Below, piece after piece: positions 1-64,000 of a DNA stretch of 64,000 bases. The notes below the pieces were generated by a model. The model saw only the letters and a program-made list of their open reading frames with translations, did no database searches and was not told the origin of the DNA. How positions within the stretch are numbered: the stretch's first letter is position 1; each line of letters starts with the position of its first letter. Location of the stretch: NCBI RefSeq assembly GCF_032118995.1, contig NC_092660.1:18834501-18898500 (forward strand), in the 5' to 3' direction. This DNA is from Asterias amurensis. Taxonomy: Eukaryota > Echinodermata > Asteroidea > Forcipulatida > Asteriidae. The position numbers and the translations under genes were made by a program.

Positions 1-20210
<20,210 letters not shown>

Positions 20211-33912: not shown

Positions 33913-35196
33913 CTAATACTGCTTCTCAGCTGAACTCGGTGGCACTCTGACCACTTCATAGCTGGTGTTGGTGCTGCCCTCTGGACGAGCGAAGTCATAC
34001 TCTGGGCTGCCATTCTCTACTTCAACTGGTACTTGGTAGTACGTATGTTGTGCGGGATTTGTCTCTTGAGTCTCCGTGTAGACGCGATTCCTGTCCTCCG
34101 TTGGCTGCAGCTCCATGTTGGGATCAGGTTGGGTGACTCGAGGTTTTTTCTCAGAGGTGGGTCTTTTTATCAGACGTTTCTTTCTGACGTCACGAAGGAT
34201 GAGAATGATGATTATGACAAAGAATGTAACAGCGAGGATTAAGACAACAATGAAAGGTACAATCCATGGAGTTGAAGATGGGGCTGCACCAGAGCTTGGG
34301 CTAGACACTGTTGAAGAGGTTGAAGTAACCTCGTTCCCCGTAGTTGGTGTAGGATTTCCAATCGATGGTGTCGTTGATCCTGTTGTTGATGATGTTGACG
34401 TGGATGATGTTGTGGGTTCTGTCATGGGTATTGTCACGGTGTTCCTCACTGTAATTGGGCCGATGTGACATGTTCGTTGCATACCAGCGAAATACATTGA
34501 TGATATGAAGCATTCGAATGCAACACCATTATCAGCATCATCCACTGTCAAATCTAATGTCCTTAAGACTGTATCGCTATCATCGTTGATTACTGATGTC
34601 CAGTTGGTGTATCTAGAAGTCTGTATAGTGGGATTGATCGTTATTTTGACTGTTCCGTGACTGCTCTCAGATGAACATCTCATATCTAACTCTGTCCAAG
34701 CGTCTACTGTAATGGGTCCAGCAGGAGAGCACATAGGGAAGGACGCATTGGGGAAGTATAACACTGAAAGTGTTACACTGGATGTGGCTACGATGGTGTT
34801 GCCTCCACCCTGTATTGGGTAATTGACATTACACACATATTCATCAGTATCGGCCCTCTGCACATTGGTGATTGTAAAGTCTTGAACAACTGTTTGAGTA
34901 GCTGTATCTACCGATGTATCGAAGATGAACCGTCCATTGTTATTATTAAAGGTGGCTCCACCCCATCGCAGGGTCTCTATAGGGTCCTCAGTCCTCCACG
35001 CCACGATACGATCCGACCCGAGGTCTGTAGCGATACACCTCATATCAACCTGCCCGCCCTCCTTCCGATCGGCCTCTGGTGTTAAGATCTCTGCATACAC
35101 AGTTAATTGAGCACTGACAACCATCAGGAATCCGCCTGCATCAAGTGAACACCAAACACACACCAAAAAAACATACATCGAGATCCTTCCCTCCAT
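33913..35196 (-). CDS. IgR2: two-Ig membrane receptor with shortened tail
   Basis: Intronless, 427 residues. Signal peptide 1-30, V-like Ig 31-147, second Ig about 150-250 with NWT glycosylation site, Ser/Thr-rich stalk about 255-307, membrane helix about 309-332, then the tail. Function unknown; an immune or self-recognition receptor is inferred from architecture. Two tail sites are altered relative to paralogues: the first tyrosine motif PYMEL reads PNMEL, and the CAG codon after the last tyrosine is TAG, so the protein ends at KQY and lacks the Grb2-type YQNI present in IgR3, 4, 7 and 8. One YARP site reads FARP. The ITSM-like TSYEVV is kept. The usual Gly before TELDMRC is Trp. Signalling may be weakened although the frame is open. 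Confidence 0.88.
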   Translation of the reverse strand: MEGRISMYVFLVCVWCSLDAGGFLMVVSAQLTVYAEILTPEADRKEGGQVDMRCIATDLGSDRIVAWRTEDPIETLRWGGATFNNNNGRFIFDTSVDTATQTVVQDFTITNVQRADTDEYVCNVNYPIQGGGNTIVATSSVTLSVLYFPNASFPMCSPAGPITVDAWTELDMRCSSESSHGTVKITINPTIQTSRYTNWTSVINDDSDTVLRTLDLTVDDADNGVAFECFISSMYFAGMQRTCHIGPITVRNTVTIPMTEPTTSSTSTSSTTGSTTPSIGNPTPTTGNEVTSTSSTVSSPSSGAAPSSTPWIVPFIVVLILAVTFFVIIIILILRDVRKKRLIKRPTSEKKPRVTQPDPNMELQPTEDRNRVYTETQETNPAQHTYYQVPVEVENGSPEYDFARPEGSTNTSYEVVRVPPSSAEKQY

Positions 35197-37500: not shown

Positions 37501-38805
37501 CTAATTGTTAATGTTCTGATACTGCTTCTCAGCTGAACTCTTTGGCACTCTTACCGCTTCATAGCTGGTGTTGGTGCTGCCCTCTGGACGAGCGTAGTCA
37601 TACTCTGGGCTACCATTCTCTAATTCAACTGGTTGGTAGTAGGTATCTTGTTTTTGAATTGTCTCTTCAGTCGTAGTGGGTTCCATGTAGACGCGATTCT
37701 TGTCCTCCGTTGGCTGCAGCTCCATGTAGGGATCAGCTTGGATGACTCGGGGTTCTTTTTCAGAGATGAGTCTTTTTATCAGACGGTTCTTTCTGACGTC
37801 ACGAAGGATGAGAATGATGATGACCACGAAGAATGTAACAGCGAGGACTACGACAACAATGAAAGCTACAATCAATGGAGTTGAAGATCGGGCTGGATTA
37901 GACGAGCCTGGGCTAGACACTGTTGAGGAGGTTGAAGAAGCCTCGTTCTCTGTAGTTGGAGTAGGATTTCCAATCGATGATCTCGTTGATGCTGCTGTAG
38001 ATGATGTTGACGTAGATGCTGTTGTGGGTTCTGTCATGGGTATTGTCACGGTGTTCCTCACTGTATATGGTCCGAATTGACATGTACGTTTCATACCAGC
38101 GAAATACATTGATGATATGAAGCATTCGAATGCAACACCATTATCAGCATCATCCACTGTCAAATCTAATGTCCTTAAGACTGTGTCGCTATCATCGTTG
38201 ACTACTGATGTCCAGTTGGTGAATCTAGAATTCTGTATTGTGGGATTAATCGTGATTGTGACTGTTCCGTGACTGCTCTCAGATGAACACCTCATATCTA
38301 ACTCTGTCCCAGCGTCTACTGTAATGGGTCCAGCAGGAGAGCACATAGGGAAGGACGCATTGGGGAAGTATAACACTAAAAGTGTTACACTGGATGTGGC
38401 TACGATGGTGGTGCCTCCGATCGATATTGGGTCATTGACATTACACACATATTCATCAGTATCGGCCCTCTGCACATTGGTGATGGTAAAGTCTTGAACA
38501 ACTGTTTGAGTATTCGCACCCGATGTATCGAAGATGAATCGTCCGTTTCTATTATGAACAGTGAATTCACCAAATCTCAGGGTCTGTATTGGGTCCTCAG
38601 TCCTCCACTCCACGATGTAATCCGACTCGAGGTTTGTAGCGGTACACCTCATATCAACCTGCCCGCCCTCCTTACGATCAGCCTCTGGTGTTAAGATCTC
38701 CGCATACGCTGTTGGTTGAGCAGTGACAACCATCAGGAGTCCGCCTGCATCAAGTGAACACCAAACACACACCAGCAAAACATACATCGAGATCCTTCCA
38801 TCCAT
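37501..38805 (-). CDS. IgR3: two-Ig membrane receptor, full tail
   Basis: Intronless, 434 residues; a good reference for the family. Signal peptide 1-30. V-like Ig with Cys54 and Cys121 (DTDEYVC). Second Ig with Cys173 and Cys228 plus an outer pair Cys155/Cys242, probably a second disulphide. NAS (149) and NWT (197) glycosylation sites. Ser/Thr/Pro-rich stalk about 258-308; membrane helix about 311-334; basic RDVRKNRLIKRL. Tail tyrosines: PYMEL (360), VYMEP (373), TYYQP (389/390), YDYARP (402/404), ITSM-like TSYEAV (415), QYQNI (429). The YQNI site fits the Grb2 SH2 consensus and YxxP fits Crk-type SH2 domains. Ligand and role unknown. The first-Ig loop segments are the most different from its neighbours. 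Confidence 0.9.
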   Translation of the reverse strand: MDGRISMYVLLVCVWCSLDAGGLLMVVTAQPTAYAEILTPEADRKEGGQVDMRCTATNLESDYIVEWRTEDPIQTLRFGEFTVHNRNGRFIFDTSGANTQTVVQDFTITNVQRADTDEYVCNVNDPISIGGTTIVATSSVTLLVLYFPNASFPMCSPAGPITVDAGTELDMRCSSESSHGTVTITINPTIQNSRFTNWTSVVNDDSDTVLRTLDLTVDDADNGVAFECFISSMYFAGMKRTCQFGPYTVRNTVTIPMTEPTTASTSTSSTAASTRSSIGNPTPTTENEASSTSSTVSSPGSSNPARSSTPLIVAFIVVVVLAVTFFVVIIILILRDVRKNRLIKRLISEKEPRVIQADPYMELQPTEDKNRVYMEPTTTEETIQKQDTYYQPVELENGSPEYDYARPEGSTNTSYEAVRVPKSSAEKQYQNINN

Positions 38806-39964: not shown

Positions 39965-40230
39965 TTATGTAACCACTGTATACTCAGTACTTTCCCGAGT
40001 TCTGTGAACAAAATCACAGGCATAGTACTCAGGTGGGATTCGAACCCACGACCTTTGCAATTCTAGATCAGTGTCATACCAACTAGACCACCGAGATTGC
40101 CCGGTAGCTAGAGACATGTAGTTCGAATCATAATGTGTTAAGCAGCGGGCACTCCATCGAATTAAGAGATGTTAAATTTGCATCGGGTATGAAGAAAATT
40201 AATTTTGGTTTCACCCATACACACACACCG
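39965..40230 (-). mobile_element. tRNA-derived SINE (same family as 3381-4455)
   Basis: Minus-strand tRNA-like head with GGTTCGAATCCCACC and a GGTCTAGTTGG A box, body ending GAAAATTAATTTTGG. Sister copy at 48685-48965 in the duplicated region. Confidence 0.7.
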
Positions 40231-40703: not shown

Positions 40704-42059
40704 ATGGATGGAAGGATCTCGATGTATGTTTTGCTGGTGTGTGTTTGGTGTTCACTTGATGCAGGCGGACTCCTGATGGTTGTCACTGCTCAACCAACAG
40801 CGTATGCGGAGATCTTAACACCAGAGGCTGATCGTAAGGAGGGCGGGCAGGTTGATATGAGGTGTACCGCTACAAACCTCGAGTCGGATCATATTGTTCA
40901 GTGGGCAACTGAAGATCCAGGACAGAACTTGAGATGGGGTGATTTAACTGTTTTTAACAACAATGGACGATTCATCTTCGATACATCGGTAGGTGTGAAT
41001 ACTCAAACAGTTGTTCAAGACTTTACCATCACCAATGTGCAGAGGGCCGATACTGATGAATATGTGTGTAATGTCAGAGACCCAATACCGACCGGAGGCA
41101 GCACCATCGTAGCCTCATCCAGTGTAACACTTTCAGTGTTATATTTCCCTAGTGCGTCCTTCCCTATGTGCTCTCCTGCTGGACCCATTACAGTAGACGC
41201 TGGGACAGAGTTAGATATGAGGTGTTCATCTGAGAGCAGTCACGGAACAGTCACAATGACGATCAATCCCACTATACAGACTTCTAGATACACCAACTGG
41301 ATATCAGTAATCAACGACGATAGCGATACAGTCGTAAGGACATTAGATTTGACAGTGGATGATGCTGACAATGGTGTTACATTCGAATGTCTCATATCAT
41401 CAATGTATTTCGCTGGTATGCAACGTACATGTCAAATCGGACCGATTACAGTGAGGAACACCGTGACAATACCCATGACAGAACCCACAACATCATCCAT
41501 AGCATTATCTACATTAGGATCAACAGAACCCTCGACTGGAAATCCTACTCCATCTACAGAGAACGAAAGTAATTCGATGTACTCTGCGACATCTACCATG
41601 ACAAAACCCATAACACCAGAACAGATAACAACTGAGTCTAGACTAAGGTCGTCTGATCAAGCCCCATCTTCAACTCCATGGATTGTAGCTTTCGTGATCC
41701 TCGCTGCTACATCCTTTGTGATCATCATCATTCTCATCCTTCGTGATGCCAGAAAGAACCGTCTGATAAAAAGTCTGAGAACTGAGAAAGAACCTCGAGT
41801 CACCAAACCTGATCCCTACATGGAGCTGCAGCCAACGGATGACAAGATCCGCGTCTACACGGAACCCACTACGACTGAAGAGACAATTCCAACAGAGAAG
41901 AGACAATTCCAAGATACCTACTACCAACCAGTTGAAGTAGAGAATGACAGCCCAGAGTACGACTACGCTCGTCCAGAGGGCAGCACCAACACCAGCTATG
42001 AAGTGGTCAAAGTACCACATAGTTCAGCTGAGGAGCAGTATCAGAACATTAACAATTAG
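40704..42059 (+). CDS. IgR4: two-Ig membrane receptor, longer stalk
   Basis: Intronless, 451 residues. Signal peptide 1-30; V-like Ig Cys54/Cys122; second Ig Cys174/Cys229 with the outer pair Cys156/Cys243; the usual NWT site reads NWI, so that glycan is absent. The stalk is longer than in IgR3, with an extra SATSTMTKPITPEQITTES segment shared in part with IgR8. Membrane helix about 327-348. Tail: PYMEL (372), VYTEP (385), TYYQP (406/407), YDYARP (419/421), ITSM-like TSYEVV (432), QYQNI (446). A short in-frame duplication near 41885-41910 (AGACAATTCCA twice) lengthens the tail before TYYQP. First of three plus-strand members. Its 3' flank matches that of IgR7 in inverted orientation. Confidence 0.9.
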   Translation: MDGRISMYVLLVCVWCSLDAGGLLMVVTAQPTAYAEILTPEADRKEGGQVDMRCTATNLESDHIVQWATEDPGQNLRWGDLTVFNNNGRFIFDTSVGVNTQTVVQDFTITNVQRADTDEYVCNVRDPIPTGGSTIVASSSVTLSVLYFPSASFPMCSPAGPITVDAGTELDMRCSSESSHGTVTMTINPTIQTSRYTNWISVINDDSDTVVRTLDLTVDDADNGVTFECLISSMYFAGMQRTCQIGPITVRNTVTIPMTEPTTSSIALSTLGSTEPSTGNPTPSTENESNSMYSATSTMTKPITPEQITTESRLRSSDQAPSSTPWIVAFVILAATSFVIIIILILRDARKNRLIKSLRTEKEPRVTKPDPYMELQPTDDKIRVYTEPTTTEETIPTEKRQFQDTYYQPVEVENDSPEYDYARPEGSTNTSYEVVKVPHSSAEEQYQNINN

Positions 42060-42521: not shown

Positions 42522-42612
42522 ATTGCAACACCCATTGACACACCCTTTGTCACACCCATCTCCACACCCACTACCACACCCGTTGCCACACCCACTGCCA
42601 TACCCATCTCCA
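42522..42612. repeat. Minisatellite, CCACACCCATTG-type units
   Basis: Imperfect 12-bp units (CACACCCAT/ACT + TGC/TCC). Equivalent arrays lie at 52155-52215 and, on the other strand, 55764-55930, each at the same place in a receptor 3' flank. Confidence 0.8.
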
Positions 42613-43214
42613 CATCATCGCCACTGGATGTTCTCAAACGGCGTCCTAGTTTTCCCTTCACTATCTCTCTAAATGTAACTTCCAAATAGCGTTGTGGTTG
42701 GAAACTTTGCTATTTTGGGGGATTGTTTCCCTCGAATAAAACCGTTTTCTACTGATTTTAAGATTTTGGAAAAACAAAACCTTGCTCATGTAAACGCATC
42801 TAATTTTAATACACAGAATAAACGCACATCGCAAAAGACAAATTATACGTTAGATTTAAAAGGCATAATCAATTGATGTAGGTTGTCAGCAAATGCATCT
42901 ACAATTATTCAGAAACAGTAAATATCCAAGCAACATATGTCAATGTTATGTTCAAACTTTTGAAGTTGTATTTTAAAAAACATGTTCACATTGTTTATGT
43001 AAACGCATCCAGTTTAAAAAGATACAGAATATAAACTAACGTCGTAAAAACACATAGGCCTAAAGTGTGTTCATTTATACTACCGTGAATTGTTTAAAAA
43101 TTCATAAGAATTTTATATCTAAGGACGTTACAGCTGTCAAAGTAACGTTCACTTGCATGTATGTTTTTACAGTAACGCTATATATTTAGTCAATTTGATT
43201 GGTGCATATTAATA

Positions 43215-43347
43215 TTAAAGGGACTGTGTCATAATGACTAAATAGGCATGATACGGAGGGAGGGCGCGCGTGCAGTAAACTGTGAGAGTTTATAATTCCA
43301 TGTACTGACACAGACCTGCTTTGATCATGACGACACAGCCCCTTTAA
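43215..43347. mobile_element. TTAA-flanked MITE, GGGGCTGTGTCGTC family
   Basis: Starts TTAAAGGGACTGTGTCATAATGA and ends TCATGACGACACAGCCCCTTTAA, good inverted complements. Same family as 36636-36761. Confidence 0.85.
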
Positions 43348-44559
43348 TCTATTGTCACATCACATTGTTAGGTTGTGATCATAAGTAGTCAACACGGTCA
43401 GAACAAAAACGAATATTCCTTTGTAATCAGATTACATCAACAATGTAAGAACCTGCTCGCTACCATGTATTTTTAGTGAACATTCATTTGGAATTAGAAC
43501 TAGAATATGATTATGTACAAACCTGCTTCTATATAAATTGCTTTAAAAAAATTCAGATTAAAAATATTGATAAGATTTTGAGTCAAATAAAATGTAATCG
43601 GAAAACATGAATATGTACATACCTGCTTGATATGAATACATTTGCACTTTTAAAAGTGTTTTCATTTGTAATCAGATTGTTTAAATAATATGTATGAACC
43701 TGCCTGATATGAATAAATTAGCATTTTTAAACGATTTCTGTTTGTAATCAAGTTGTATGAATATTTATGAGCCTGCTGGATTTGAATAAACTAATGACGA
43801 GTGACCGACATCAATACATGGTATCTTACACGTCCATCTCATTCAGGAAAGTAATTATAAGGACCTCACTGCCCCAACACTTATGGTTAACACTCCTCCT
43901 ACAAAAAGAATGATTCCTTTCATTTTGTTATTTTAAAATAATACCGAGGACTTTGTTTGAGCTAATAATGAACAATTTTTAACAATCTTCAAAAGTTTTG
44001 TTGAGGCCAAATGAACGGCATTTCTTTTTCATCAAACTGTTCATTCTGTAAGAAAAGAAAAACATTAATCAGGATTTAGGACCCTTTTTGGCACCGTTGG
44101 CGGCGTACGTGTTTGTGATGGGATACATGTACATGTACCCGGAACTGAACTCTTAGACTTTTTCCAAATCAGTTTTGTGCTATTCTGGGAAATCTATGAC
44201 GTCACAATACTCATCTAAATATGGATCACGCTCTTTGAGAGTGCTCAGTAAGAATATAAGTGAGTTCTTTACCCAAAAAATCGCACATATCAAAGCGACT
44301 GGAGGACTGTAAAATGACGGTTTAAAAGGGCAACATTTGTCAAACTATTTGACTTGATTCTTCGGTTTCAAACCATCCTACTAATATGAAGAAAATTACA
44401 TTAATGGCAAGAAATACGTCAATTATTTTGGTGTTTTGGGGCATGTTCTAGAATTAGTTGAACTCACTGTGACATTGTGACCCTTATTGTTAAACTTGTT
44501 GTCGTAAAAATGAAAACCCAGAGTTTAGGTATTGTTGAAGTTCATTGCCGTGTCGTGCT

Positions 44560-44676
44560 CAGTATAAGGAAGTACAACCATGTACCGTTAAACGTACATT
44601 AAATCACTATTACATTGAGCTGTGTGTGAATGTGGGAATGATTTAATAGCAACTTAATAAACTTAGATTCAATACG
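44560..44676 (+). promoter_or_regulatory. 5' flank of IgR5 with a 46-base deletion
   Basis: The conserved segment between GTGTGTGAA(C/T)GTGGGA and ATGATTTAATAGCAACTT, which holds ATTCTACTTCATGCATTTCC in other members, is missing here; the junction is at about 44636-44637 with GGA microhomology. If the segment is part of the core promoter, IgR5 expression would differ. Confidence 0.55.
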
Positions 44677-45981
44677 ATGGATGGAAGGATCTCGATGTAT
44701 GTTTTGCTGGTGTGTGTTTGGTGTTCACTTGATGCAGGCGGATTCCTGATGGTTGTCACTGCTCAACCAACAGCGTATGCGGAGATCTTAACACCAGAGG
44801 CTGATCGTAAGGAGGGCGGGCAGGTTGATATGAGGTGTACCGCTACAAACCTCGAGTCGGATTACATCGTGGAGTGGGCAACTGAACATCCAAAACAGAG
44901 CTTGAGATGGGGTGATGTCACTGTTTTTAACAGCGTTTGGCGATTCATCTTCGGTACATCGGGTGTGAATACTCAAACAGTTGTTCAAGACTTTACCATC
45001 ACCAATGTGCAGAGGGCCGATACTGATGAATATGTGTGTAATGTCAATTACCGAATACAGGGTGGAGGCTACACCATCGTAGCCTCATCCAGTGTAACAC
45101 TTTCAGTGTTATACTTCCCCAGTGCGTCCTTCCCTATGTGCTCTCCTGCTGGACCCATTACAGTAGACGCTGGGACAGAGTTAGATATGAGTTGTTCATC
45201 TGAGAGCAGTCACGGAACAGTCACAATGACGATTAATCCCACAATACAGAATTCTAGATACACCAACTGGGCATCAGTTATCAACGATGATAGCGATACA
45301 GTCGTAAGGACATCAGATTTGACAGTGGATGATGTTGATAATGGTGTTGCATTCGACTGCTTCATATCATCCATGTATTTCGCCGGTATGAAACGTACAT
45401 GTCAATTCGGACCAATTACAGTGAGGAACACCTTGACAATACCCTTGACAGAACCCACAACATCATCTACGTCAACATCATCTACAGCAGGATCAACGAG
45501 ACCATCGACTGGAAATCCTACTCCATCTACAGGGAACGAGGTTACTCCAACCTCCACAACTGTGTCTAGCCCAAGCTCATCTGATGCAGCCCCATCTTCA
45601 ACTCCATGGATTGTAGCTTTCATAGTTGTCTTAGTCCTCGCTGTTACATTCTTCGTGACCAACATTATTCTCATCCTTCGTGACGTCAAACAGAAACGTC
45701 TGATAAAAAGACTTAGATCTGAGAAAGAACCCCGAGACACCCAACCCGATCCCTACATGGAGCTGCAGCCAACGGAGGACAAGAATCGCGTCTACACGGA
45801 ACCCACTACGACTGAAGAGACAATTCGAACACAACATACCTACTACCAACCAGTTGAGGTAGAGAATGGCAGCCCAGAGTATGACTACGCTCGTCCAGAG
45901 GGCAGCACCAACACCAGCTATGAAGCGGTCAGAGTGCCACAGAGTTCAGCTGAGAAGCAGTATCAGAACACCAACAAATAG
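44677..45981 (+). CDS. IgR5: two-Ig membrane receptor
   Basis: Intronless, 434 residues. Same plan as IgR3: signal peptide, V-like Ig, second Ig with four cysteines, Ser/Thr stalk, membrane helix, tyrosine tail (PYMEL, VYTEP, TYYQP, YDYARP, TSYEAV, QYQNT). The last site is YQNT rather than YQNI but still has Asn at +2. Oddities: the framework NNNGRF of the first Ig is NSVWRF; the second-Ig glycosylation site reads NWA; the membrane helix contains Thr-Asn (FFVTNIILIL) where others have only aliphatic residues. A polar residue there can support pairing with a partner chain, but that is speculation. The 5' flank lacks about 46 bases present in the others. The 3' flank is of the IgR2/3/8 type. 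Confidence 0.89.
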   Translation: MDGRISMYVLLVCVWCSLDAGGFLMVVTAQPTAYAEILTPEADRKEGGQVDMRCTATNLESDYIVEWATEHPKQSLRWGDVTVFNSVWRFIFGTSGVNTQTVVQDFTITNVQRADTDEYVCNVNYRIQGGGYTIVASSSVTLSVLYFPSASFPMCSPAGPITVDAGTELDMSCSSESSHGTVTMTINPTIQNSRYTNWASVINDDSDTVVRTSDLTVDDVDNGVAFDCFISSMYFAGMKRTCQFGPITVRNTLTIPLTEPTTSSTSTSSTAGSTRPSTGNPTPSTGNEVTPTSTTVSSPSSSDAAPSSTPWIVAFIVVLVLAVTFFVTNIILILRDVKQKRLIKRLRSEKEPRDTQPDPYMELQPTEDKNRVYTEPTTTEETIRTQHTYYQPVEVENGSPEYDYARPEGSTNTSYEAVRVPQSSAEKQYQNTNK

Positions 45982-48205: not shown

Positions 48206-48684
48206 TACAAACAAAATATTTTAGTAAACATTCTTCAGAGCAGTATGAGTGTTATTAATTTAACTGTCATTCAAAACGAACACAATGATCACATACACTA
48301 GACAGGAATATTGGATAGAGGGCGCACTCTGCCGCTGTGTCAACGTAACGATAAATTGGGGAGGGGAATTTTGCATCAGAAGCACACCACGACAATGCCA
48401 CAATCTCACGATTCGGTCGAATTGACTCGATGGCGAATCAATTATCTAAATGACATTATTGGTTGTACATAGTGTAATTAAAGACATAAACAATACCTTG
48501 TTTGCTTGAGGGCCTACTGTTGGAAAACGTTCACGTTGCACACTTCCATTAACTGAAATGAGGGGAAAAGGTAACAGTTTTTCTTTCTGCTGGCGAACTA
48601 CATAGTTCTAATCTGCGTGTGTACAACTTTCTTTGCTGATTGAAGTAAATACCATTCGTTTTGGTATTACCCATAATATACACA

Positions 48685-48965
48685 GATTATGTAACCACTG
48701 AATACTCAGTACTTTCCCGGGTTCTGTGAACAAAATCACAGGCATAGTACTCAGGTGGGATTCAAACCCACGACCTTTCCAATTCTAGAGTCAGTGTCAT
48801 TCCAACTAGACCACCGAGATTGCCCGGTAGCTAGAGGACATGCAGTTCGAATCATATGTGGTAGCAGCGGGCACTCCAACGAATTTATAGATGTTAAATT
48901 TGCATCGGGTATGAAGAAAATTAATTTTGGTCTCACCCATACACACCGAGAAAATATTATTAATT
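48685..48965 (-). mobile_element. tRNA-derived SINE, sister of 39965-40230
   Basis: Same head and body as 39965-40230, with GGTGGGATTCAAACCCACGACC in place of the intact B box, showing decay after duplication. Confidence 0.65.
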
Positions 48966-49425
48966 TTTTCCAATAAATCTCCTCTCTCGTATAATCTTAC
49001 TGTGTTGGCATCTCTTCAAATGTTTCTTTCAACCATTATTTGTTTGGAACTTTAAGAAGTTGCAATCAGTCGGTTTGTGGTCGTGCAGTATTTCAATGTC
49101 ATGATATGGGCGAGTTGCGGTATGGTTGTTCATAAATAACTGTTCTAGATTCAGTTGAACTGTGACGTTATAATCCTTTTTGTCAAACATGTCTGGATAA
49201 AATGAAATTCATGAATTGTGTTATTGTTGAAGTTCATTGGCGCGTAGTTATAGCAGGAGGAAGTACAAACCAAGTCGACTTCATCGTTAAATACATGTAC
49301 ATTAAATCACTGTTACATTGAGCTGTATGTGAACGTGGGATCATTCTACTCCATGCATTTCCATCCTTTACCCGTCGTCTCCAGGAATGATTTAATAGCA
49401 ACTTAATAAACTCAGATTCAATACG

Positions 49426-51270
49426 ATGGATGGAAGGATCTCGATGTATGTTTTGCTGGTGTGTGTTTGGTGTTCACTTGATGCAGGCGGATTCCTGATG
49501 GTTGTCACTGCTCAACCAACAGTGTCTGCGGTGATCTTAACACCAGAGGCTGATCGTAAGGACGGCGGGCAGGTTAAAATGAGATGTACCGCTACAAACC
49601 TCGTCTCGGATCATATCGTGGAGTGGAGGACTGAAGATCCAAAACAGACACTGAGATGGGGTGAAAGTACTGTTTTTAGCAACAATGGACGATTCATCTT
49701 CGATACATCGGTAGGTGTGAATACTCAAACAGTTGTTCAAGACTTTACCATCACCAATGTGCAGAGGTCCGATACTGATCAATATGTGTGTAATGTCAAT
49801 GACCCAATGCAGGGTGGAGGCAACAACATCGTAGCCACATCCAATGTAACACTTTCAGTGTTATACTTCCCCAATGCGTCCTTCCCTATGTGCTCTCCTG
49901 CTGAACCCATTACAGTAGACGCTGGGACAGAGTTAGATATGAGGTGTTCATCTGAGAGCAGTCACGGAACAGTCACAATGACGATCAATCCCACTATACA
50001 GACTTCTAGATACACCAACTGGACATCAGTAATCAACGATGATAACGATACAGTCGTAAGGACATTATATTTGAAAGTGGATGATGCTGACAATGGTGTT
50101 GCATTCGAATGCTTCATATCATCAATGTATTTCGCGGGTATGCAACGTACATGTAAAGTCGGACCAATTACAGTGAGGAACACCGTGACAATAAAAATAA
50201 CAGAACCAACAACAACGTCCAAGACTTCGTCCAGTCCTGCCGCCATTGCCGGAGTAGTCGCTGGGGGAGTCGCTGCATTTCTTCTCCTCGTAATCCTGAT
50301 CCTTTTTATTTACTGTAAACGACGCTCCGGCAACCCGGATCCCAAATCGGAACAGTTCAATGCAGACATCAACCAAACAAGTACTGACTTGACACTAGAT
50401 AGACTTGAGCAGTCTCAGGTCAGTTTCAACGAGTATGGAGATCTTGACTCAATACAGCATGGATTACAGGATAACATCATATATGTCCCATCCCCGAGCC
50501 CAATATCCGGACCAGGTGAGTCTTATGCTGGCACTTTGCCGGTACAAACAGCTGAGACGATTGATCCAAGTCTAATTTATGCAAAACCAATCCGTACCAA
50601 AACTCAAAAGACTGCACGTGAATTGAAGAGGCAACTGTCAGACCCCAACGATAACCCTACAACTGATCAGAGTTACAACAATCCTGCATTTGATTGTAAT
50701 GTCTCTGGTGGAACAACAACGCCCTATTGGGACGACTCACCCACTCCCACACCGGCGGCATCGGTTAGACCAACTCGACCTATTAAACCCACACCATATA
50801 AACCCAACCCGTCACAGCGTAACACATTGGGTAGGCCTAACAATGACAATCCTGTAATTGAGTCAAGTGTCTCTGATGGAACAACAACGCCCTCTGGAGT
50901 CGACTTATCCACATCAACCAAACCGATTGCATTAGTCAGACCAACTCGACCTAGTAAGCCCAGACCCTATAAGCCCAAGCCAGCAGAGCGTATGAGTGAC
51001 GCCCCGAGTACCCACAACGACCGGATGCCACCCTCTCCCCCACCCCTGACAAGCGTCAATGACGGTACCCCTATGGAAAACACCGACGATTCTCCTTATG
51101 CCCAAGACTCCGTACCCATGAGACAGCAGAGTAGTCATGGCAACCCAGCATCTGAGGATCACATTGTCTATGCTGATTTGGATCTGCAATCAGATGAGAT
51201 TCAAGATGGCGGACACCACCCTCACCCAGCATCTGAAGCAGTGCTGTACTCGAGTGTAATGATGAACTAA
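49426..51270 (+). CDS. IgR6: two-Ig membrane receptor with ITIM tail
   Basis: Intronless, 614 residues. Residues 1-263 match the family (signal peptide, V-like Ig Cys54/Cys122, second Ig Cys174/Cys229 plus outer pair, NWT site). After RNTVTI the sequence changes completely: a short stalk; a different membrane helix about 272-296 (AGVVAGGVAAFLLLVILILF); then a 318-residue tail. The tail has YGDL, IIYVPS, LIYAKP and SYNNP sites; two related segments of about 60 residues each with a TTTP run and RPTRPxKPxPYKP (SH3-ligand type); and at the end two canonical ITIMs, IVYADL (Tyr582) and VLYSSV (Tyr608), 26 residues apart as in SHP-1/2-recruiting receptors. An inhibitory role is inferred. The usual YMEL, ITSM-like and YQNI sites are absent. 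Homology to the family flank resumes near 52.1 kb. Confidence 0.9.
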   Translation: MDGRISMYVLLVCVWCSLDAGGFLMVVTAQPTVSAVILTPEADRKDGGQVKMRCTATNLVSDHIVEWRTEDPKQTLRWGESTVFSNNGRFIFDTSVGVNTQTVVQDFTITNVQRSDTDQYVCNVNDPMQGGGNNIVATSNVTLSVLYFPNASFPMCSPAEPITVDAGTELDMRCSSESSHGTVTMTINPTIQTSRYTNWTSVINDDNDTVVRTLYLKVDDADNGVAFECFISSMYFAGMQRTCKVGPITVRNTVTIKITEPTTTSKTSSSPAAIAGVVAGGVAAFLLLVILILFIYCKRRSGNPDPKSEQFNADINQTSTDLTLDRLEQSQVSFNEYGDLDSIQHGLQDNIIYVPSPSPISGPGESYAGTLPVQTAETIDPSLIYAKPIRTKTQKTARELKRQLSDPNDNPTTDQSYNNPAFDCNVSGGTTTPYWDDSPTPTPAASVRPTRPIKPTPYKPNPSQRNTLGRPNNDNPVIESSVSDGTTTPSGVDLSTSTKPIALVRPTRPSKPRPYKPKPAERMSDAPSTHNDRMPPSPPPLTSVNDGTPMENTDDSPYAQDSVPMRQQSSHGNPASEDHIVYADLDLQSDEIQDGGHHPHPASEAVLYSSVMMN

Positions 51271-51331
51271 CATTGATATATTTGATATGTATCGTAGAAT
51301 GAGAAAGACTCTGCCCTTCTCCTTGTCACCT

Positions 51332-51592
51332 CGGCCCAATTTCATAGAGCTGCTAAGAACAACAAAATTGCTTAGCATGAAATTTCTTCCTTGATTAAAA
51401 CAGGACTACCAACCAAATTTCTACCTGTTGCATATTGCTTGTTACTGGTATGGCGCAGCTGTTGTTTGCTTATCCTGAAAAACACATGGAAATTTGGTTG
51501 ATAATCCTGTTTTTATCAACGAAGACATTTTATGCTTTGTAAATTTGTGTGCTTAGCAGCTCTATGAAATTGTGCCCAGGTCCGGTATTCTC
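51332..51592. mobile_element. MITE, GGCCCAATTTCATAGAGC family
   Basis: Ends CGGCCCAATTTCATAGAGCTGC and GCAGCTCTATGAAATTGTGCCC are inverted complements. The interior has inverted TTTGGTTG(A/G)T and AAACAGGA segments. It lies about 60 bases after the IgR6 stop, inside the segment unique to IgR6. Confidence 0.8.
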
Positions 51593-52154
51593 TCCCAATC
51601 TCCTCGTACCTTCTCCTATGGCTTGTCAGCTCCTATTTATCCCTTGATTAATCTTCAAATAATTGTGTTCTACATTTCAAAGTTGGCCTCGTTGCTTTTT
51701 AAATGAACATGCATCAATGTTAGAAACTTGAGTTTTCAATCCTTAAATGTAAACATTTTTTTAGAGATATTATTTGGTAATCGTGATGTTATACTACCAC
51801 GGTCTTGAGATCCTATCTGTTAGCAAAGACATTTTCCTGCACACACTTATATAAAGACTAATTTTCATATTAAACATGTACTTGGTTTTATATTGTACCG
51901 ATAACAAAAAATCATAAACTTGTGGTTCTTTTTATAAAACCTTGCCTTGCTGAAAAAGGGGAACCACAACAAAAACTGCAACCTAAGACAATAAAATTTA
52001 ACCCCGTCTCAGGTAAATTGTACTCATTTTTAATACGCTTCTTCGGTAAAAAAAAATATATTAGAAGCGTCAAAAGTTGTCATGATGAACAATACAAATA
52101 TAACTGCATTGGCTTTTATTTCTCAAAATCAAGTGTTTGTATCCCCCGTAACAC

Positions 52155-52215
52155 GCACCTAGCACCACACCCATTGCCACACCCATTGCCACGCTCACTG
52201 CCACACCCCTCTCGA
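52155..52215. repeat. Minisatellite, CCACACCCATTG-type units
   Basis: About five imperfect 12-bp units (CACACCCATTGC). Same array as 42522-42612 and 55764-55930. Confidence 0.75.
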
Positions 52216-52604
52216 TACCATCGCCAAAGGGTGTTCGTCCATGTCCTTTAAGTTTTCCCTCCACAATGTCTGCCTAAATTTCCAAACAGAGTCGTGGTTG
52301 GAAACTTTGCTATTTTGTAGTCACAAAAATTTCACACATGTTGGATTATTTCAATTAAATGAAACTGTACTGTACTGTGGGTTTTAAGGTTTTAAGATTT
52401 TGAAAAACATGTACACTTTGCTTGTATAACCGCATCTAATTCAGAAAAAAATTGATGTTGTAAAAAATAAATACGTTTACACTTTGTGTGAATTGATTGC
52501 AAATGCATCCGTAATTATTCAGAAGAGAAAAGTTACATGTCAAAGTTATGTTTTATGAATAATATATTTTTTACATTAACGCTAAGTCGGTGTGATCGGT
52601 GTTT

Positions 52605-52734
52605 GCTAAAGGAACCGTGTCGTCATGACTAATGTTACGGAGTAGGGAAGGCGCGCCTGCAGTAACTGGTTGATAGATCATAGTTCCATGTACAGCAATG
52701 GCCTGCTTTGACCATGACGACACAGCCCCTTTAA
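52605..52734. mobile_element. MITE, GGGGCTGTGTCGTC family
   Basis: Left end CTAAAGGAACCGTGTCGTCATGA, right end CATGACGACACAGCCCCTTTAA. Positionally equivalent to 43215-43347. Confidence 0.7.
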
Positions 52735-53169
52735 TCTATTGTCACGTCACACTTTTAGGTTTTGATAAAAATAAACAAAAAAGTCAGAACACAAAAAGAA
52801 TAATTTTTTTTGTACTCAGATTGCATCAACAGTGTACGAACCTGCTCGATATGATGTATTTTGTAGTGAATATTCATTTGGAATTATGATAAATGATTAT
52901 GTCTGAACCTGCTTAAGTAAATGAATTACTTAAACATCATTTCAGATTAAAAATAACAAGATTTTGATTAAGATAAATGTAATTGGAAAACATGAATATG
53001 TACGTATATACCTGCTTGATATTAATAAATTTTGCATTTAAAAAATTTGGTATATTGAAATTCTGCTACAGAATTATTGTATAATTTATTTATTTTTTCA
53101 TTAAAATACAATCGAGGACTTTGTATGAGCTAGAACACAAAATACTCTGCCAAAATACTGAACCATTTT

Positions 53170-53600
53170 TTAACAGACTAGATGGTGGTTGAGGACAATG
53201 AACGGCACTTGATCAAGTTTTTTCATTATGTATTTAAAAGGATTAACAATCAGGATTTGTGACCCTGTTGGCACCGTTGGTGGCGTGTTTGTGATTTATT
53301 GATGGGATACATCTATACCCTGAACTGAACTATCTGACATTTTCCAAACTAGTTTTGTGCTACCCTGGGCAATCTATAACGTCACAATCCTCATTCAAAT
53401 ATGGGTCACACTCTGTGAGAGCGCTCAGTGAAATTTTGAATAAATTCTTTAACAAGCAATATCTCACCTACCTGTAATTCTCAAAGCAACTAAAGGGCTG
53501 TAAAAGAGAAACATTTGTAAAACTAATATTTGATTTGATTCTCCAATTTCGAACAATCCTCCTAGTTATATAATGATATATATGCATATCCAGCATATTA
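53170..53600 (+). other. Relict distal 5' flank of a plus-strand receptor
   Basis: Matches 44030-44400 in order and orientation (CCCTGTTGGCACCGTTGGTGGCG, GATGGGATACAT, AGTTTTGTGCTACCCTGGGCAATCTATAACGTCACAA). In IgR4-IgR5 this flank leads to a receptor start about 280-650 bases further on. Here it stops near 53.6 kb and no receptor follows. A lost or rearranged gene is inferred. Confidence 0.6.
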
Positions 53601-56246: not shown

Positions 56247-57542
56247 CTAATTGTTAATGTTCTGATACTGCTTCTCAGCTGAACTCTGTGGCACTCTGAC
56301 CGCCTCATAGCTGGTGTTGGTGCTACCCTCTGGACGAGCGTAGTCATACTCTGGGCTGTCATTCTCTACTTCAACTTGTTGGTAGTAGGTATCTTGTTTT
56401 TGAATAGTCTCTTCAGTCGTAGTGGGTTCCATGTAGACGCGATTATTGTCCACCGTTGGCTGCAGCTCCATATAGGGATCAGGATGGGTGACTCGAGGTT
56501 CTTTCTCAGAGATGAGTCTTTTTATCAGACGTTTCTGTCTGACGTCACGAAGGATGAGAATGATGATGATGACAAAGAATGTCACAGCAAGGACAACGAT
56601 AACTATGAAAGCTACAATCAATGGAGTTGAAGATAAGGCTGCATCAGATGATCTTGGGCTAGACTCAGTTGAAGAGGTTGAAGTAACTTCATTCTCTGTA
56701 GGTGGAGTAAGATTTCCAGTCGATGGTCTCGTTGATCCTGCTGTAGATGATGTTGACATGGATGATGTTGTGGGTTCTGTCGTGGGTATTGTCACGGTGT
56801 TCCTCAATGTAATTGGTCCGATTTGACATGCACCATGCATACCAGCGAAATACATTGATGATATGAGACATTCGAATGCAACACCATTATCAGCATCATC
56901 CACTTTCAAATTTAATGTCCTTAAGACTGTATCGTTATCATCGTTGATTACTGATGCCCAGTTGGTGTATCTAGAAGTCTGTATAGTGGGATTGATCGTC
57001 ATTGTGACTGTTCCGTGACTGCTCTCAGATGTACATCTCATATCTAACACTGTCCCAGCGTCTACCGTAATGGATCCAGCAGGAGAGCACATAGGGAAGG
57101 ACGCATTGGGGAAGTATAACACTGAAAGTGTAACACTGGATGTGGCTACGATGGTGTGGCCTCCGGTCGGTATTGGGTCATTGACATTACATTCATATTG
57201 ATCAGTATCGGCCCTCTGCACATTGGTGATGGTGAAGTCTTGAACAACTGTTTGAGTATTCACACCCGATGTACCGAAGATGAATCGTCCATTGTTATTA
57301 TTAACGGTGGTTCCACCCCATCTCAGGGTAAACTGAGTTTTCCACTCCACGATGTAATCCGACCTGAGGTTTGTAGCGATACACCTCATATCAACCTGCC
57401 CGCCCTCCTTACGATCAGCCTCTGGTGTTAAAATCACCACATTCACTGTTGGTTGAGCAGTGACAACCATCAGGAATCCGCCTGCATCAAGTGAACACCA
57501 AACATACACCAGCAAAACATACATCGAGATCCTTCCATCCAT
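56247..57542 (-). CDS. IgR7: two-Ig membrane receptor
   Basis: Intronless, 431 residues, family plan as IgR3. The first Ig is a few residues shorter: the segment after the core Trp reads WKTQFTLRWGG where others have W-T-E-D-P. The second Ig has NWA instead of NWT, and HGACQIG instead of QRTCQIG, keeping all four cysteines. Ser/Thr stalk, membrane helix (LIVAFIVIVVLAVTFFVIIIILIL). Tail with PYMEL, VYMEP, TYYQQ, YDYARP, ITSM-like TSYEAV and QYQNI. The first YYQP site has lost its Pro. Minus strand; its 3' flank is the IgR4 type, whereas its 5' spacer is collinear with that of IgR2, so this copy is mosaic. Confidence 0.89.
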   Translation of the reverse strand: MDGRISMYVLLVYVWCSLDAGGFLMVVTAQPTVNVVILTPEADRKEGGQVDMRCIATNLRSDYIVEWKTQFTLRWGGTTVNNNNGRFIFGTSGVNTQTVVQDFTITNVQRADTDQYECNVNDPIPTGGHTIVATSSVTLSVLYFPNASFPMCSPAGSITVDAGTVLDMRCTSESSHGTVTMTINPTIQTSRYTNWASVINDDNDTVLRTLNLKVDDADNGVAFECLISSMYFAGMHGACQIGPITLRNTVTIPTTEPTTSSMSTSSTAGSTRPSTGNLTPPTENEVTSTSSTESSPRSSDAALSSTPLIVAFIVIVVLAVTFFVIIIILILRDVRQKRLIKRLISEKEPRVTHPDPYMELQPTVDNNRVYMEPTTTEETIQKQDTYYQQVEVENDSPEYDYARPEGSTNTSYEAVRVPQSSAEKQYQNINN

Positions 57543-58858: not shown

Positions 58859-60661
58859 CATCATCATCATCCGTCGTCCTTAGACGGAATAGCAGAAGCA
58901 GCTTTGATGAAGTGGTGCCAGGTTGCTTTGTCCCTCATGAGTTGTTGAGTCTCGTTTTGATTGAGATTTGTGTCTCGGGTGATGGTGTCAGAGTAGCTCA
59001 TTTTCCTCCTGCCGCGATTTGGATGTCCGCCAGGGGGATTCCAGAAGACCAGATGCGATATAGGTTGATCCGCTGTTCGCAAACAGTGGCCAGCAAACTG
59101 GAGACGTCTCTGCATTATGGTCTCGGAAAGTGGTGGTAGATTGCCATAAACCTCCCTGTTTGTAGTATGGTCCCGCCAGTGGATGTTGAGAACTCTACGC
59201 AGCAGTTGAGTGTAGCAACCGTTGATGCGATCATTCATTTTTTGTGTTGTTGTCCATGTTTCGGCTCCATATAGCAAGATGCTTTCAACACAGGCCCCGA
59301 AGAACTTGATTTTGATAGCTCTGTCAAGATCAGATTTCCAGATCTTATCTAATTGGTTACATGCTGACCATGCTTGCGCTTTCCTGCATTTGAAATCTTG
59401 GAATGAGTCAGGTAGTGACGAACCGAGGTATTTGAAATCTGAAACAGTTTTAAGTTTCGTACCATCAAGAGTCTGTATACTGGATGTTGGAGGAATATTC
59501 ACGAGGAGAGTCTTCGTTTTTCCTGTGTTTAGATGAAGCCCGACACAATTGGAAGCCTCCTCAATACTGTGAAGTAATGATTCTGCAGTGTCAATTGATG
59601 TTGACAAGAGTGCTACATCATCAGCAAAGTCCAGATCATGGAGACGGATCTCTGGATAACGACTGCTCTTTCTTTCTTTAAGCACAATTCCTGTTTCCTG
59701 CTGAATACCTCGTAAAGCGTGCCTCATTATATAATCCAGCACAACCACGAAGAGGAAAGGTGCTAAAGTGTCGCCCTGGAGTACGCCAGCATGGGTCTTG
59801 AAGGATTCCGTTTCACCATCTGGTGTGATTACTGCTGCAGAGGAGTCGTCATATATTAGCTTAATGGCTTCAATTATACTTGTTGGAATACCATATGCTT
59901 GTAAGATGTTGAACATTCGTTCTCTGTGGATGGAGTCGAAGGCCTTTGAATAGTCTACGAACACAAGAGCCAATGGCAGGTTCTTTGACTTCATGCCCTC
60001 GATGATTCGTCTGAGTGCCAGAATTTGGGAGACAGTTGACCTCTTTTGTCTAAAGCCATTTTGATTCCATCGCAGTAGAGGGTCCACATGAGGTCTGATT
60101 CTGTTCAGCAGCATCCGGTTGAAAATTTTGGCTCCGATGCTAGTAAGAGTGATACCCCGGAAGTTGGACGGCTGCGACAGGTCTCCTTTCTTCGGTATGG
60201 GTATAATACCCCCCTTTGACCACTGCTTCGGTTTTTCATGTTGCAGTAGCAGTTGATTACAGTAGTGTAGAAGGTGGGGTTTATAAATGTTAGACTTCCA
60301 TAGCTCAAGGGGGATGTTGTCCAATCCCACAGCGCTGCCAGTTTTGGTTTGTGCAAGTGCTTGGTTCACTTCCTCTTCAGTAAACTCAGTGGTGATTATG
60401 GGTAGATTTCCATCATAGATTCGAGTGATGGTAAAGTCACTGTCAGGGATGGAAGGTGGTTTCCCAAGTAAGTTTGAGAAGTTCTGCACCCATGCTTCCT
60501 TTCTTTCTTGCGGTGTTCCATTAAGATGTGCAGGTTTGGATTCCTTTCTACCACAAATGTCATTTATGATTTTCCAAGCCACGCTGTGTCTGCTAGAGAG
60601 GGAGGCTTGATGGATTTGCTCAACATGCATCACAAGCAAAGCCTTTTCTTCTGACATGAAC
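58859..60661 (-). mobile_element. 5'-truncated non-LTR retrotransposon (LINE, RTE-like)
   Basis: Inserted with a 10-base target duplication GTGTACTTTT (58849-58858 and 60662-60671); the empty site is at 36593-36602. On the minus strand it ends in a (TGA)4 tail, typical of RTE-type LINEs with microsatellite tails and almost no 3' UTR. The endonuclease half is missing, as expected for 5' truncation. The length, intact frame and clean duplication point to a recent insertion. Confidence 0.88.
58867..60657 (-). CDS. LINE reverse transcriptase, 5' partial
   Basis: An uninterrupted frame of 596 codons. Reverse-transcriptase landmarks: SAVGLDNIPLELWK (about 108-121), IPIPKKGD and FRGITLTSIGAK (about 151-176), LVFVDYSKAFDSIHRERM (about 231-248), GVLQGDTLAPFLF (291-303), catalytic DFADDVALLS (343-352). 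The C-terminal part has LLYGAETWTTTQ, RRVLNIHWRDH and RRLQFAGHCLR, found in RTE/CR1-like LINEs. No apurinic endonuclease domain precedes it because the element is cut 5'. The first Met is only the first in the remaining frame, not a true start. The stop lies in the TGA-repeat tail. Clade is not certain without a tree. Confidence 0.9.
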   Translation of the reverse strand: MSEEKALLVMHVEQIHQASLSSRHSVAWKIINDICGRKESKPAHLNGTPQERKEAWVQNFSNLLGKPPSIPDSDFTITRIYDGNLPIITTEFTEEEVNQALAQTKTGSAVGLDNIPLELWKSNIYKPHLLHYCNQLLLQHEKPKQWSKGGIIPIPKKGDLSQPSNFRGITLTSIGAKIFNRMLLNRIRPHVDPLLRWNQNGFRQKRSTVSQILALRRIIEGMKSKNLPLALVFVDYSKAFDSIHRERMFNILQAYGIPTSIIEAIKLIYDDSSAAVITPDGETESFKTHAGVLQGDTLAPFLFVVVLDYIMRHALRGIQQETGIVLKERKSSRYPEIRLHDLDFADDVALLSTSIDTAESLLHSIEEASNCVGLHLNTGKTKTLLVNIPPTSSIQTLDGTKLKTVSDFKYLGSSLPDSFQDFKCRKAQAWSACNQLDKIWKSDLDRAIKIKFFGACVESILLYGAETWTTTQKMNDRINGCYTQLLRRVLNIHWRDHTTNREVYGNLPPLSETIMQRRLQFAGHCLRTADQPISHLVFWNPPGGHPNRGRRKMSYSDTITRDTNLNQNETQQLMRDKATWHHFIKAASAIPSKDDG

Positions 60662-61918: not shown

Positions 61919-63259
61919 CTAATTTTTAATGTTCTGATACTGCTTCTCAGCTGAACTCTTTGGCACTCTGACCGCTTCATAGCTGGTGTTGGTGCTGCCC
62001 TCTGGACGAGCGTAGTCATACTCTGGGCTGCCATTCTCTACTTCAGCTGGTTGGTAGTAGGTGTGTTGTGCGGGATTTGTCTCTTCAGTCGTAGTGGGTT
62101 CCATGTAGACGCGATTCTTGTCCTCCGTTGGCTGCAGCTCCATGTAGGGATCGGGTTGGGTGTCTCGGGGTTCTTTCTCAGAGGTTAGTCTTCTTATCAG
62201 ACGTTTCTGTCTGATATCACGAAGGATGAGAATGATAATGGAGACCAAGAATATAGCAGCGAGGACTATGAACGCTACAATCCATGGAGTTGAAGATGGG
62301 GCTGAAGCAGACGAACTTAGGCTAGACTCGGTTGTTTTCTGCTCTGGTGTTGTTGGTTTTGTCATGGTAGATGTCGCAGAGGACGTTGAAGTAACCTCGT
62401 TCTCTGTAGTTGGAGAAGGATTTCCAGTCGATGGTCTAGTTCCTGCTGTAGATGATGTTGACGTGGATGATGTTGTGGGTTCTGTCATGAGTATTGTCAC
62501 GGTTTTCCTCACTGTAATTGGTCCGATTTGACATGTACGTTGCATACCAGCAAAATACATTGATGATATGAAGCATTCGAATACAACACCATTATCATCA
62601 TCATCCACTGTCAAATCTGATGTTCTTAGGACTGTATCGTTATCATCGTTGATTACTGATATCCAGTTGGTGTATCTAGAAGTCTGTATAGTGGCATTGA
62701 TCGTCATTGTGACTGTTCCGTGACTGCTCTCAGATGAACACCTCATATCTAACTCTGTCCCAGCGTCTACTGTAATGGGTCCAGCAGGAGAGCACATAGG
62801 GAAGGACGCATTGGGGTAGTATAACACTGAAAGTGTTACACTGGATGTGGCTACGATGGTGTTGCCTACGATCGATAATGGGTCATTGACATTACACACA
62901 TATTCATCAGTATCGGCCCTCTGCACATTGGTGATGGTAAAGTCTTGGAGAACTGTTTGAGTATTAACACCTACCGATGTACCGAAGATGATCCGTCCAT
63001 TGTTGTTAAAAACAGTGATTTCACCCCATCTCAAGGTCTTTTTTGGATCTTCAGTTGCCCACTCTACGACATTATCCGACTCGAGGTTTGTAGCGGTACA
63101 CCTCATATCAACCTGCCCGCCCTCCTTACGATCAGCCTCTGGTGTTAAGATCTCCGCATACGCTGTTGGTTGAGCAGTGATAACCATCAGGAGTCCGCCT
63201 GCATCAAGTGAACACCAAACACACACCAACAAAACATACATCGAGATCTTTCCATCCAT
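61919..63259 (-). CDS. IgR8: two-Ig membrane receptor, longer stalk
   Basis: Intronless, 446 residues when started at MDGKISMYV (63257-63259). An in-frame Met lies 12 codons further upstream, but it falls in the conserved 5' flank and is not shared by paralogues, so it is rejected. Signal peptide, V-like Ig, second Ig (NWI instead of NWT; all four cysteines kept), stalk with the extra SATSTMTKPTTPEQKTTES segment also seen in IgR4, membrane helix (TPWIVAFIVLAAIFLVSIIIL), basic RDIRQKRLIRRL. Tail: PYMEL, VYMEP, TYYQP, YDYARP, ITSM-like TSYEAV, QYQNI. The shared stalk segment with IgR4 suggests exchange between members. Position and spacer match IgR3. Confidence 0.9.
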   Translation of the reverse strand: MDGKISMYVLLVCVWCSLDAGGLLMVITAQPTAYAEILTPEADRKEGGQVDMRCTATNLESDNVVEWATEDPKKTLRWGEITVFNNNGRIIFGTSVGVNTQTVLQDFTITNVQRADTDEYVCNVNDPLSIVGNTIVATSSVTLSVLYYPNASFPMCSPAGPITVDAGTELDMRCSSESSHGTVTMTINATIQTSRYTNWISVINDDNDTVLRTSDLTVDDDDNGVVFECFISSMYFAGMQRTCQIGPITVRKTVTILMTEPTTSSTSTSSTAGTRPSTGNPSPTTENEVTSTSSATSTMTKPTTPEQKTTESSLSSSASAPSSTPWIVAFIVLAAIFLVSIIILILRDIRQKRLIRRLTSEKEPRDTQPDPYMELQPTEDKNRVYMEPTTTEETNPAQHTYYQPAEVENGSPEYDYARPEGSTNTSYEAVRVPKSSAEKQYQNIKN

Positions 63260-64000
63260 CGTATTGAATCTTAGTTTTAAGTTGCTATTAATCATTTCTG
63301 GAGAAGACGGATAAAGGATGGAAATGCATGAAGTTGAATGATCCCACGTTCACACACAGCTCAATGTAAGAGGGATTTAATGTACGTTTAACGATGAATG
63401 GCTGACTTCCTTATACTGAGCACGACACGCCAATGAACTTCAACAATAACACAACTCTTGGTTTTCATTTTACGGCAACAAGTTTAACAATAAGGGTCAC
63501 AAGGTCGCAGTTCAACTGATTTTTGATAATACCTAAAAAGAAGAAGAATCAAATCAAATAGTTTGACAAATGTTGCCCTTTAAACTGTCATTTTACAGTC
63601 TTTCAGTCGCTTGGATATATGAGAATTGGTTTGCCAAAGAAGTTATTTCAATTCTTGCTGATCGCTCTCAAAGAATGTGATCCGTATTTGGGCAAAGAAG
63701 ATTGTGATGTCATAGATTTCCCAGGGTAGCACAAAACTGATTTTGGAAATTAACTGATTGTTCAGTTCTGGGTATAGATGTATCTCAACGACACCAACGG
63801 TGCCAGCAGGGGTCTGATGTCCTTTATTGTCTATTTTCAATACAGCATGCACAACTTGATCGAGGGAAACCGTTCATTTGGCCTCAACCAAAAGTTTAAA
63901 AGTCTGTTAAAATCTTTCAGTATTTTGGCAGAATAATTTTCCTAACCCATACAAAGTCCTCGATCTCGTTTTAGTATAACAAAAAATATGAATGGATACA
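63260..64000. other. 5' flank of IgR8 and start of another spacer copy
   Basis: Matches 57543-58290 and 35197-36010 to the window end (CATACAAAGTCCTCGATCTCGTTTTAG). Since this spacer leads to another receptor in the other two copies, the array probably continues to the right. Confidence 0.65.

Follow-up and report, generated by a model that had tools for sequence, protein, structure and literature searches.

A family-type Ig head joined to an unrelated, ITIM-bearing tail in a receptor gene cluster of Asterias amurensis

The window, i.e., the whole stretch of DNA that was analyzed, comprises 64,000 nucleotides of the Asterias amurensis genome (GCF_032118995.1, contig NC_092660.1, positions 18,834,501 to 18,898,500 of the forward strand), and all positions given here refer to it. 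Between 29.7 and 63.3 kb, in a span of less than 34 kb, eight Ig-receptor ORFs are located, which were named R1 to R8 from left to right (Table 1). Each of them is coded by one unbroken ORF from the ATG to the stop codon, containing no intron. R2–R5, R7, and R8 consist of a leader, two Ig domains, a Ser/Thr-rich stalk, a membrane helix, and 95–105 residues past the helix core. A family tail is found in all relatives of R6, whose number is seven and not six as originally predicted, R1 being the relative with a reduced ectodomain and an expanded family-type tail. The expansion of the R1 tail is made up of repeats of a TYF/EDDY-type tyrosine unit.

Table 1. Receptor genes of the cluster and features of the R6 locus (positions within the window).
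Feature	Position	Strand	Remarks
R1	29688-30908	-	relative; Ig domain 2 and the greater part of the stalk missing; family-type tail, expanded
R2	33913-35196	-	relative, family tail
R3	37501-38805	-	relative, family tail
R4	40704-42059	+	closest to R6 in the 5′ flank; tail with TYYQPV and TSYEVV 25 residues apart, plus YQN
R5	44677-45981	+	relative, family tail
R6 (IgR6)	49426-51270	+	614 aa, single ORF, putatively exchanged tail
R7	56247-57542	-	relative, family tail; near 3′ flank resembling those of R4 and R6
R8	61919-63259	-	relative, family tail; listed ORF has a further-upstream ATG at 63295
5′ flank common to R4 and R6 (to R1 too from ~48954)	48682-49425	+	BLASTN; distance to R4 similar to that of the head
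Putative 3′ splice site of a 5′-UTR intron	49360-49384	+	pyrimidine-rich stretch ending in CAG; inferred from the sequence by eye
Head of R6	49426-50191	+	leader, V-type Ig domain 1 (~49525-49863), Ig domain 2 (~49864-50191)
Diverged stalk stub	50192-50224	+	older homology between the head and the unrelated part
R6-specific stalk, membrane helix, and tail	50225-51267	+	helix core residues 274-294 (50245-50307); 318-residue tail from 50314
In-frame duplication of a proline-rich segment	50678-50821 and 50846-50992	+	BLASTN, 78%
ITIM 1, IVYADL	51163-51180	+	residues 580-585, tyrosine 582
ITIM 2, VLYSSV	51241-51258	+	residues 606-611, tyrosine 608
3′ side without a match in the relatives	51271-52155	+	BLASTN; includes the foldback element 51328-51581
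Resumed family-type 3′ flank	52156-53043	+	BLASTN

As the putative 3′ splice site of R6 lies upstream of the ATG, the whole coding region would be one exon. A pyrimidine-rich stretch with a CAG was recognized by eye before the ATG region of seven of the eight genes. Both are absent from R5 (44587-44676), for which reason the splice site may have been lost there. Relatives were also searched for in Viral_contigs, where the scan with the R4 protein gave two pattern matches, none of which was confirmed, and the scan with the R6 tail gave none, as is expected of an animal gene.

The genes were scanned for Ig domains with Pfam, the scan covering seven of the eight (all except R3). For R6, PF00047 was found with 23.6 bits (cut-off 21.8), the V-set PF07686 was detected above the cut-off in R4 and R8, and Ig domain 2 gave a C2-set_2 match below the cut-off only. 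The whole R6 protein matched mainly antibody chains over Ig domain 1 in the PDB (among the best 60 of 94 matches), which indicates an Ig domain and nothing more. A structure model of the head, based on seven sequences, reached a mean pLDDT of 34 and was not used.

In the exposed segments of Ig domain 1, R6 differs from each of the six relatives compared and is identical to none of them in these segments, its QGGG stretch being common to R2 and R5. Across seven copies, residues 121-144, including the expected FG loop, have a pN/pS of 2.19 (a value given without a significance test), and the highest synonymous divergence is found in residues 49-96, with a pS of ~0.24-0.25 compared to 0.03-0.14 in the leader and Ig domain 2. 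Residues 49-96 look as if a diversified block had resisted homogenization, and loop variants are spread among the copies in a mosaic-like manner. Judged by the sequences, a ligand class common to R6 and its relatives is plausible; due to the differing segments of Ig domain 1, the same ligand can be called plausible only.

The region 48501-53500 was searched against the window using BLASTN (E 1e-5). R6 matches R4 with 90.1% identity over 48682-50221 (R4 side from 39960 on), and the matches to R2, R3, R5, R7, and R8 have a DNA identity of 84-89% and end at 50214-50221. On the protein level, the two-Ig ectodomain of R6 is 82-86% identical to those of the six full-length relatives, with an aligned range reaching slightly past 50191. 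For 50222-52155, no match was found in the window at the same threshold except for the internal duplication of the tail and the foldback element, and a TBLASTN search revealed no second copy of the R6 tail in the window (best off-target E 0.05). The family 3′ flank is back from 52156, with ~77% identity to R4 42553-42717 and more pieces matching R4 43164-43655 and R7; its near part matches R4 and R7, and farther out R3, R5, and R8 match as well. The chimeric structure of the original prediction, a family ectodomain joined to a different helix and tail, is borne out by these searches, as are the unrelated 1.9 kb that follow and the return of the family flank near 52.1 kb, though the similarity of this flank clearly falls short of that of the head.

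The foldback element just past the R6 stop codon is self-complementary to ~74%, and no other copy of it could be detected in the window (E 1e-5).

The switch from head to tail takes place in two steps: near-identity extends to ~50191, followed by a 33-base stub that is homologous but far more diverged, after which the homology ends. Bases private to R6 in comparison with the six others amount to 20 of 763 in the head, 9 of 33 in the stub, and 21 of 38 in 50225-50262; in each of the six other copies, 0-1 of 31-33 stub bases are private. A change-point scan of 49426-50224 placed the change at 50194, which was reached by none of 1000 permutations. This agrees with the end of the match predicted at RNTVTI (~50190), beyond which a residual homology extends to ~50224. 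In the stub, 24 of 33 bases match the family, whereas the best of 27967 control positions (1-28000) has 21 and the best of 1010 tail positions 19; the excess over the controls points to a short stretch of more diverged homology that separates the similar head from the unrelated tail. The alignment of the breakpoints, proposed as a check of the tail swap, thus gave edges at ~50191, ~50224, and 52156. The reading frame of R6 stays open across the junction, and its ORF lies far beyond the background of the window, in which the longest stop-free run outside the named ORFs has 155 codons (n = 5861).

The helix core of R6 has a GRAVY of 2.90 and carries no charge. For the tail, counted from the helix end, no Pfam match above the cut-off was obtained, and a PDB sequence search with helix and tail gave no convincing relative, the two matches being syndecan-2 in the helix (E 0.55) and an unrelated bacterial protein (E 6). 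ITIM, ITSM, Grb2-type, and SH3-type motifs are used here in their general definitions and meanings, with a Src-type kinase as the presumed phosphorylator of the tyrosines. The two canonical ITIMs in which the tail had been predicted to end are both present, and their tyrosines are located 26 residues apart and near the C-terminus. Among shuffled R6 tails (n = 20000), at least two ITIMs occur in 1.5% by the strict and in 4.8% by the wider definition, and two ITIMs 20-33 residues apart with the second near the C-terminus occur in 0.05%, a criterion that was set after the motifs had been seen. The copies of the proline-rich duplication differ with a Ka of 0.23 and a Ks of 0.42 over 46 codons, and each contains an SH3-type motif of the form PxxPx[RK], namely PTRPIK (residue 449) and PTRPSK (residue 506); at least two such motifs are found in 9.3% of the shuffled tails.

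In the relatives, ITSM-like and Grb2-type sites had been predicted. ITSM-type sites (TxYxx[VI]) are present in all six full-length relatives, with two sites 25 residues apart in R3, R4, R5, and R7, but the Grb2-type YxN occurs in only five of the six (all except R2), and R6 itself has one (residue 417). R1 contains one ITSM-type site and no YxN. Single YxxL cores are found in R1, R3, R4, R5, R7, and R8. The ITAM pattern was detected in none of the eight tails searched and a charge in the 21-residue helix core in none of the eight genes, and the shortest stretch past the core has 95 residues.

In paired receptors, the activating partner is described as short-tailed, with a membrane helix that carries a positively charged residue (PMC3533184). 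As R1–R8 have neither a charged core nor an ITAM, an activating partner of this classical type, as characterized in that source, is absent from the window; one could lie outside it. The tandem phosphorylated ITSMs of CD244 are reported to bind the tandem SH2 domains of SHP-2 with tenfold higher affinity, in competition with SAP and EAT-2 (PMC3958483), and the ITSM is described as the indispensable inhibitory site of PD-1 (PMC7078208). Four of the six relatives have their two ITSM-type sites 25 residues apart, an arrangement similar to the tandem ITSMs of CD244 (PMC3958483) and, in its spacing, to Y223/Y248 of PD-1 (PMC7078208); the likeness concerns motifs, and no homology is claimed. Since ITSM-type sites are, according to both sources, a platform for SHP-2 as well as for SAP/EAT-2, the relatives could inhibit, activate, or switch. 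Doubly phosphorylated ITIM peptides of PD-1 are reported not to activate SHP-2, which was activated by ITSM peptides (PMC7078208); by this account an ITIM match alone is no proof of inhibition by R6.

The hallmark of paired receptors, a similar ligand-binding part with opposite signaling, was part of the original prediction. It is borne out by half, as conserved extracellular domains are found in a small cluster (82-86%, eight ORFs within 34 kb) together with a member that is of the inhibitory type on the sequence level, namely the ITIM-tailed R6, whereas the window contains no activating member with a short tail and a charged helix. Heads that are more alike than the remaining sequence, described for Siglec-11/16 (PMC5701461) and not defining for every paired family, are seen in the distances between R4 and R6 given below. 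Classical pairing, in which R6 would be inhibitory, the relatives activating, and one ligand common to both, would account for the clustered similar ectodomains, for the ITIM tail of R6 as opposed to the other tail of the relatives, and for a head more alike than the 3′ flank, and the YxxL cores leave room for a hemITAM-like activating signal. However, ITAM patterns and charged helix cores are lacking in the relatives, the ITSM-type sites found in all six full-length ones can recruit SHP-2, and segments of Ig domain 1 vary from copy to copy, which makes this explanation rather unlikely. R6 is best read as a putative inhibitory-type receptor with an exchanged tail that is analogous to paired receptors.

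In vertebrates, the paired Ig receptors KIR, LILR/PIR, SIRP, Siglec-11/16, and CEACAM are likewise clustered type I Ig receptors with similar heads, different tails, and an ITIM member, as far as described in PMC3533184, and the heads of Siglec-11/16 are reported to be kept alike by gene conversion while the tails differ (PMC5701461). R1–R8 differ from them by the absence of a partner with a charged helix or an ITAM in the window, by the ITSM-type sites of the relatives, and by coding regions of one unbroken ORF each, and the likeness is stated without a claim of orthology. Among invertebrates, the Botryllus FcoR are clustered Ig receptors with tails carrying ITIM, hemITAM, or core tyrosine motifs and with alleles differing in motif (PMC12065747). 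Compared by their description in that source, they consist of a V-Ig, sushi, and two C2-Ig domains in contrast to the two Ig domains found here, and no sushi domain was matched by Pfam at E up to 1 in the seven genes scanned. The Hydractinia Alr, also compared by description, are a clustered invertebrate IgSF family of 41 members (PMC11999971), in which such tail motifs are reported (PMC12065747). Among the literature titles listed, which cover the field in part and leave absence unproven, no intronless Ig/ITIM or ITSM family and no echinoderm ITIM receptors were found.

JC distances between R4 and R6 were calculated with each of four alignment methods. They amount to 0.067-0.080 in the 5′ flank (48682-49425) and 0.071-0.075 in the head, compared to 0.173-0.281 in 52382-53043 and 0.152-0.213 in 52568-53043 for the 3′ flank, where the size of the distance depends on aligner and range. 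The intervals do not overlap by any aligner, the highest upper bound for 5′ flank and head being 0.102 and the lowest lower bound for the 3′ flank 0.116, and for the stub a distance of 0.388 (interval 0.208-0.699) was obtained. R4 has the longest 5′ flank in common with R6. With one local aligner, the 3′ flank of R6 has distances of 0.181 to R7, 0.212 to R3, 0.241 to R8, and 0.268 to R5, and that of R4 has a distance of 0.150 to R7. The reverse pattern was found for R3 and R8, with 0.053 in the 3′ flank (below 37500 and 61918) versus 0.136 in the 5′ flank, which suggests that exchange hit different parts in different copies and that ages vary along the cluster in both directions. Averaged over every pair among the seven copies, Ks is 0.04 in the leader, 0.16 in Ig domain 1, and 0.09 in Ig domain 2; the average for the six family tails, taken pairwise, is 0.18.

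The close 5′ flank and head of R4 and R6 against a diverged 3′ flank, together with the two-step boundary and a mean Ks that is lower in the leader and Ig domain 2 than in the family tails, make the exchange of the tail look old and the homogenization of the head later. An old exchange of the 3′ half of R6, followed by a homogenization of head and 5′ flank, is the simplest reading of the distances and a likely one. The stub comprises just 33 bases, so that fast evolution of the stalk could mimic age, and rates in flank and coding sequence may differ. Further points against this reading are the lesser homogenization of Ig domain 1 compared with the leader and Ig domain 2, the reverse pattern of R3 and R8, and the 18 of 167 bases just upstream of the gene (49246-49425) that R6 has in common with none of the other copies, a proportion above that of the head, which counts against a full equality of 5′ flank and head.

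As one alternative, R6 could be the young copy of an R4-like gene that lost its 3′ half to a single recent tail swap at ~50.2 kb. The high identity of R4 and R6 in 5′ flank and head is in line with this, but past the replaced block the 3′ flank is ~2-4 times as diverged and the stub has an intermediate homology, a pattern that does not fit and renders a single recent swap improbable. Alternatively, the R6 tail could be ancestral and the family tail could have spread to the other copies by gene conversion; the divergence varies strongly along the copies, as conversion would give, and the polarity of the exchange is not directly readable. However, the family tail is found in all seven relatives regardless of their 5′ or near 3′ flank, so that one change in R6 is simpler and an ancestral R6 tail has a low probability. 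An assembly error or a fusion of two unrelated pieces, to which the sharp edges on both sides could be ascribed, is very improbable, as the frame runs on through the junction with an intact helix and intact C-terminal motifs, and neither the in-register homology of the stub nor the family-type flank on the far side is expected for a misjoin.

A simple insertion by retroposition or template switching was rejected as source of the tail, due to the family-type flank beyond the block and the family tail not being left behind it; the older event may have taken other routes.

The account of an old tail exchange, a later homogenization of the head, and an ITIM-based inhibitory output of R6 is, as a whole, reasonably probable. 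As one member of the cluster of eight, R6 would act at the cell surface as a type I receptor, and an old event in its gene would have exchanged 50225-52155 (stalk, helix, tail, and proximal 3′ side) for an unrelated module, with the stub on one side and the 3′ flank on the other left as homologous sequence. The head and the 5′ flank up to ~50191 would have been re-homogenized afterwards, by gene conversion or by unequal crossing-over between R6 and an R4-like neighbor. Ig domain 1 of R6 would recognize a ligand like those of the family, a Src-type kinase would phosphorylate the tyrosines, and the two C-terminal ITIMs would recruit an SHP-type tandem-SH2 phosphatase, resulting in an inhibitory output. 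The proline-rich repeats would bind SH3 proteins, and the relatives would signal via their ITSM/Grb2-type sites instead.

More tentatively, this animal lineage may have evolved its own paired-receptor-like system in genes of one coding exon each, in which conversion copies the recognition half from the ITSM/Grb2-type neighbors into the ITIM receptor and stops in the stalk, so that recognition is matched and the outputs differ. If true, the cluster would be a compact natural case of a receptor family keeping its recognition matched with a changed output, apparently outside the families in which this has been worked out, and the two-step boundary would make the order of events readable from one locus.

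Beside the Ig cluster, pieces of a Tie-like receptor tyrosine kinase are located at 1847-19780, where Ig, fibronectin-type, and helix pieces were recognized by eye from the ORF translations; the best match of the kinase piece at 14226-14525 is the angiopoietin-1 receptor Tie-2 (E 6e-14). Repeats resembling tRNA-Ser are found in 3380-4450, with three tRNA-Ser calls at 3.4-4.3 kb, and are possibly a SINE family. A tRNA-family match also lies in the 5′ flank of R4 (40026-40097), with a related stretch in the 5′ flank of R6 (48659-48944). Furthermore, there is a tandem array with 71-base spacing at 5150-5575, and an ORF of 596 aa between R7 and R8 (58867-60657) was named reverse-transcriptase-like by eye.
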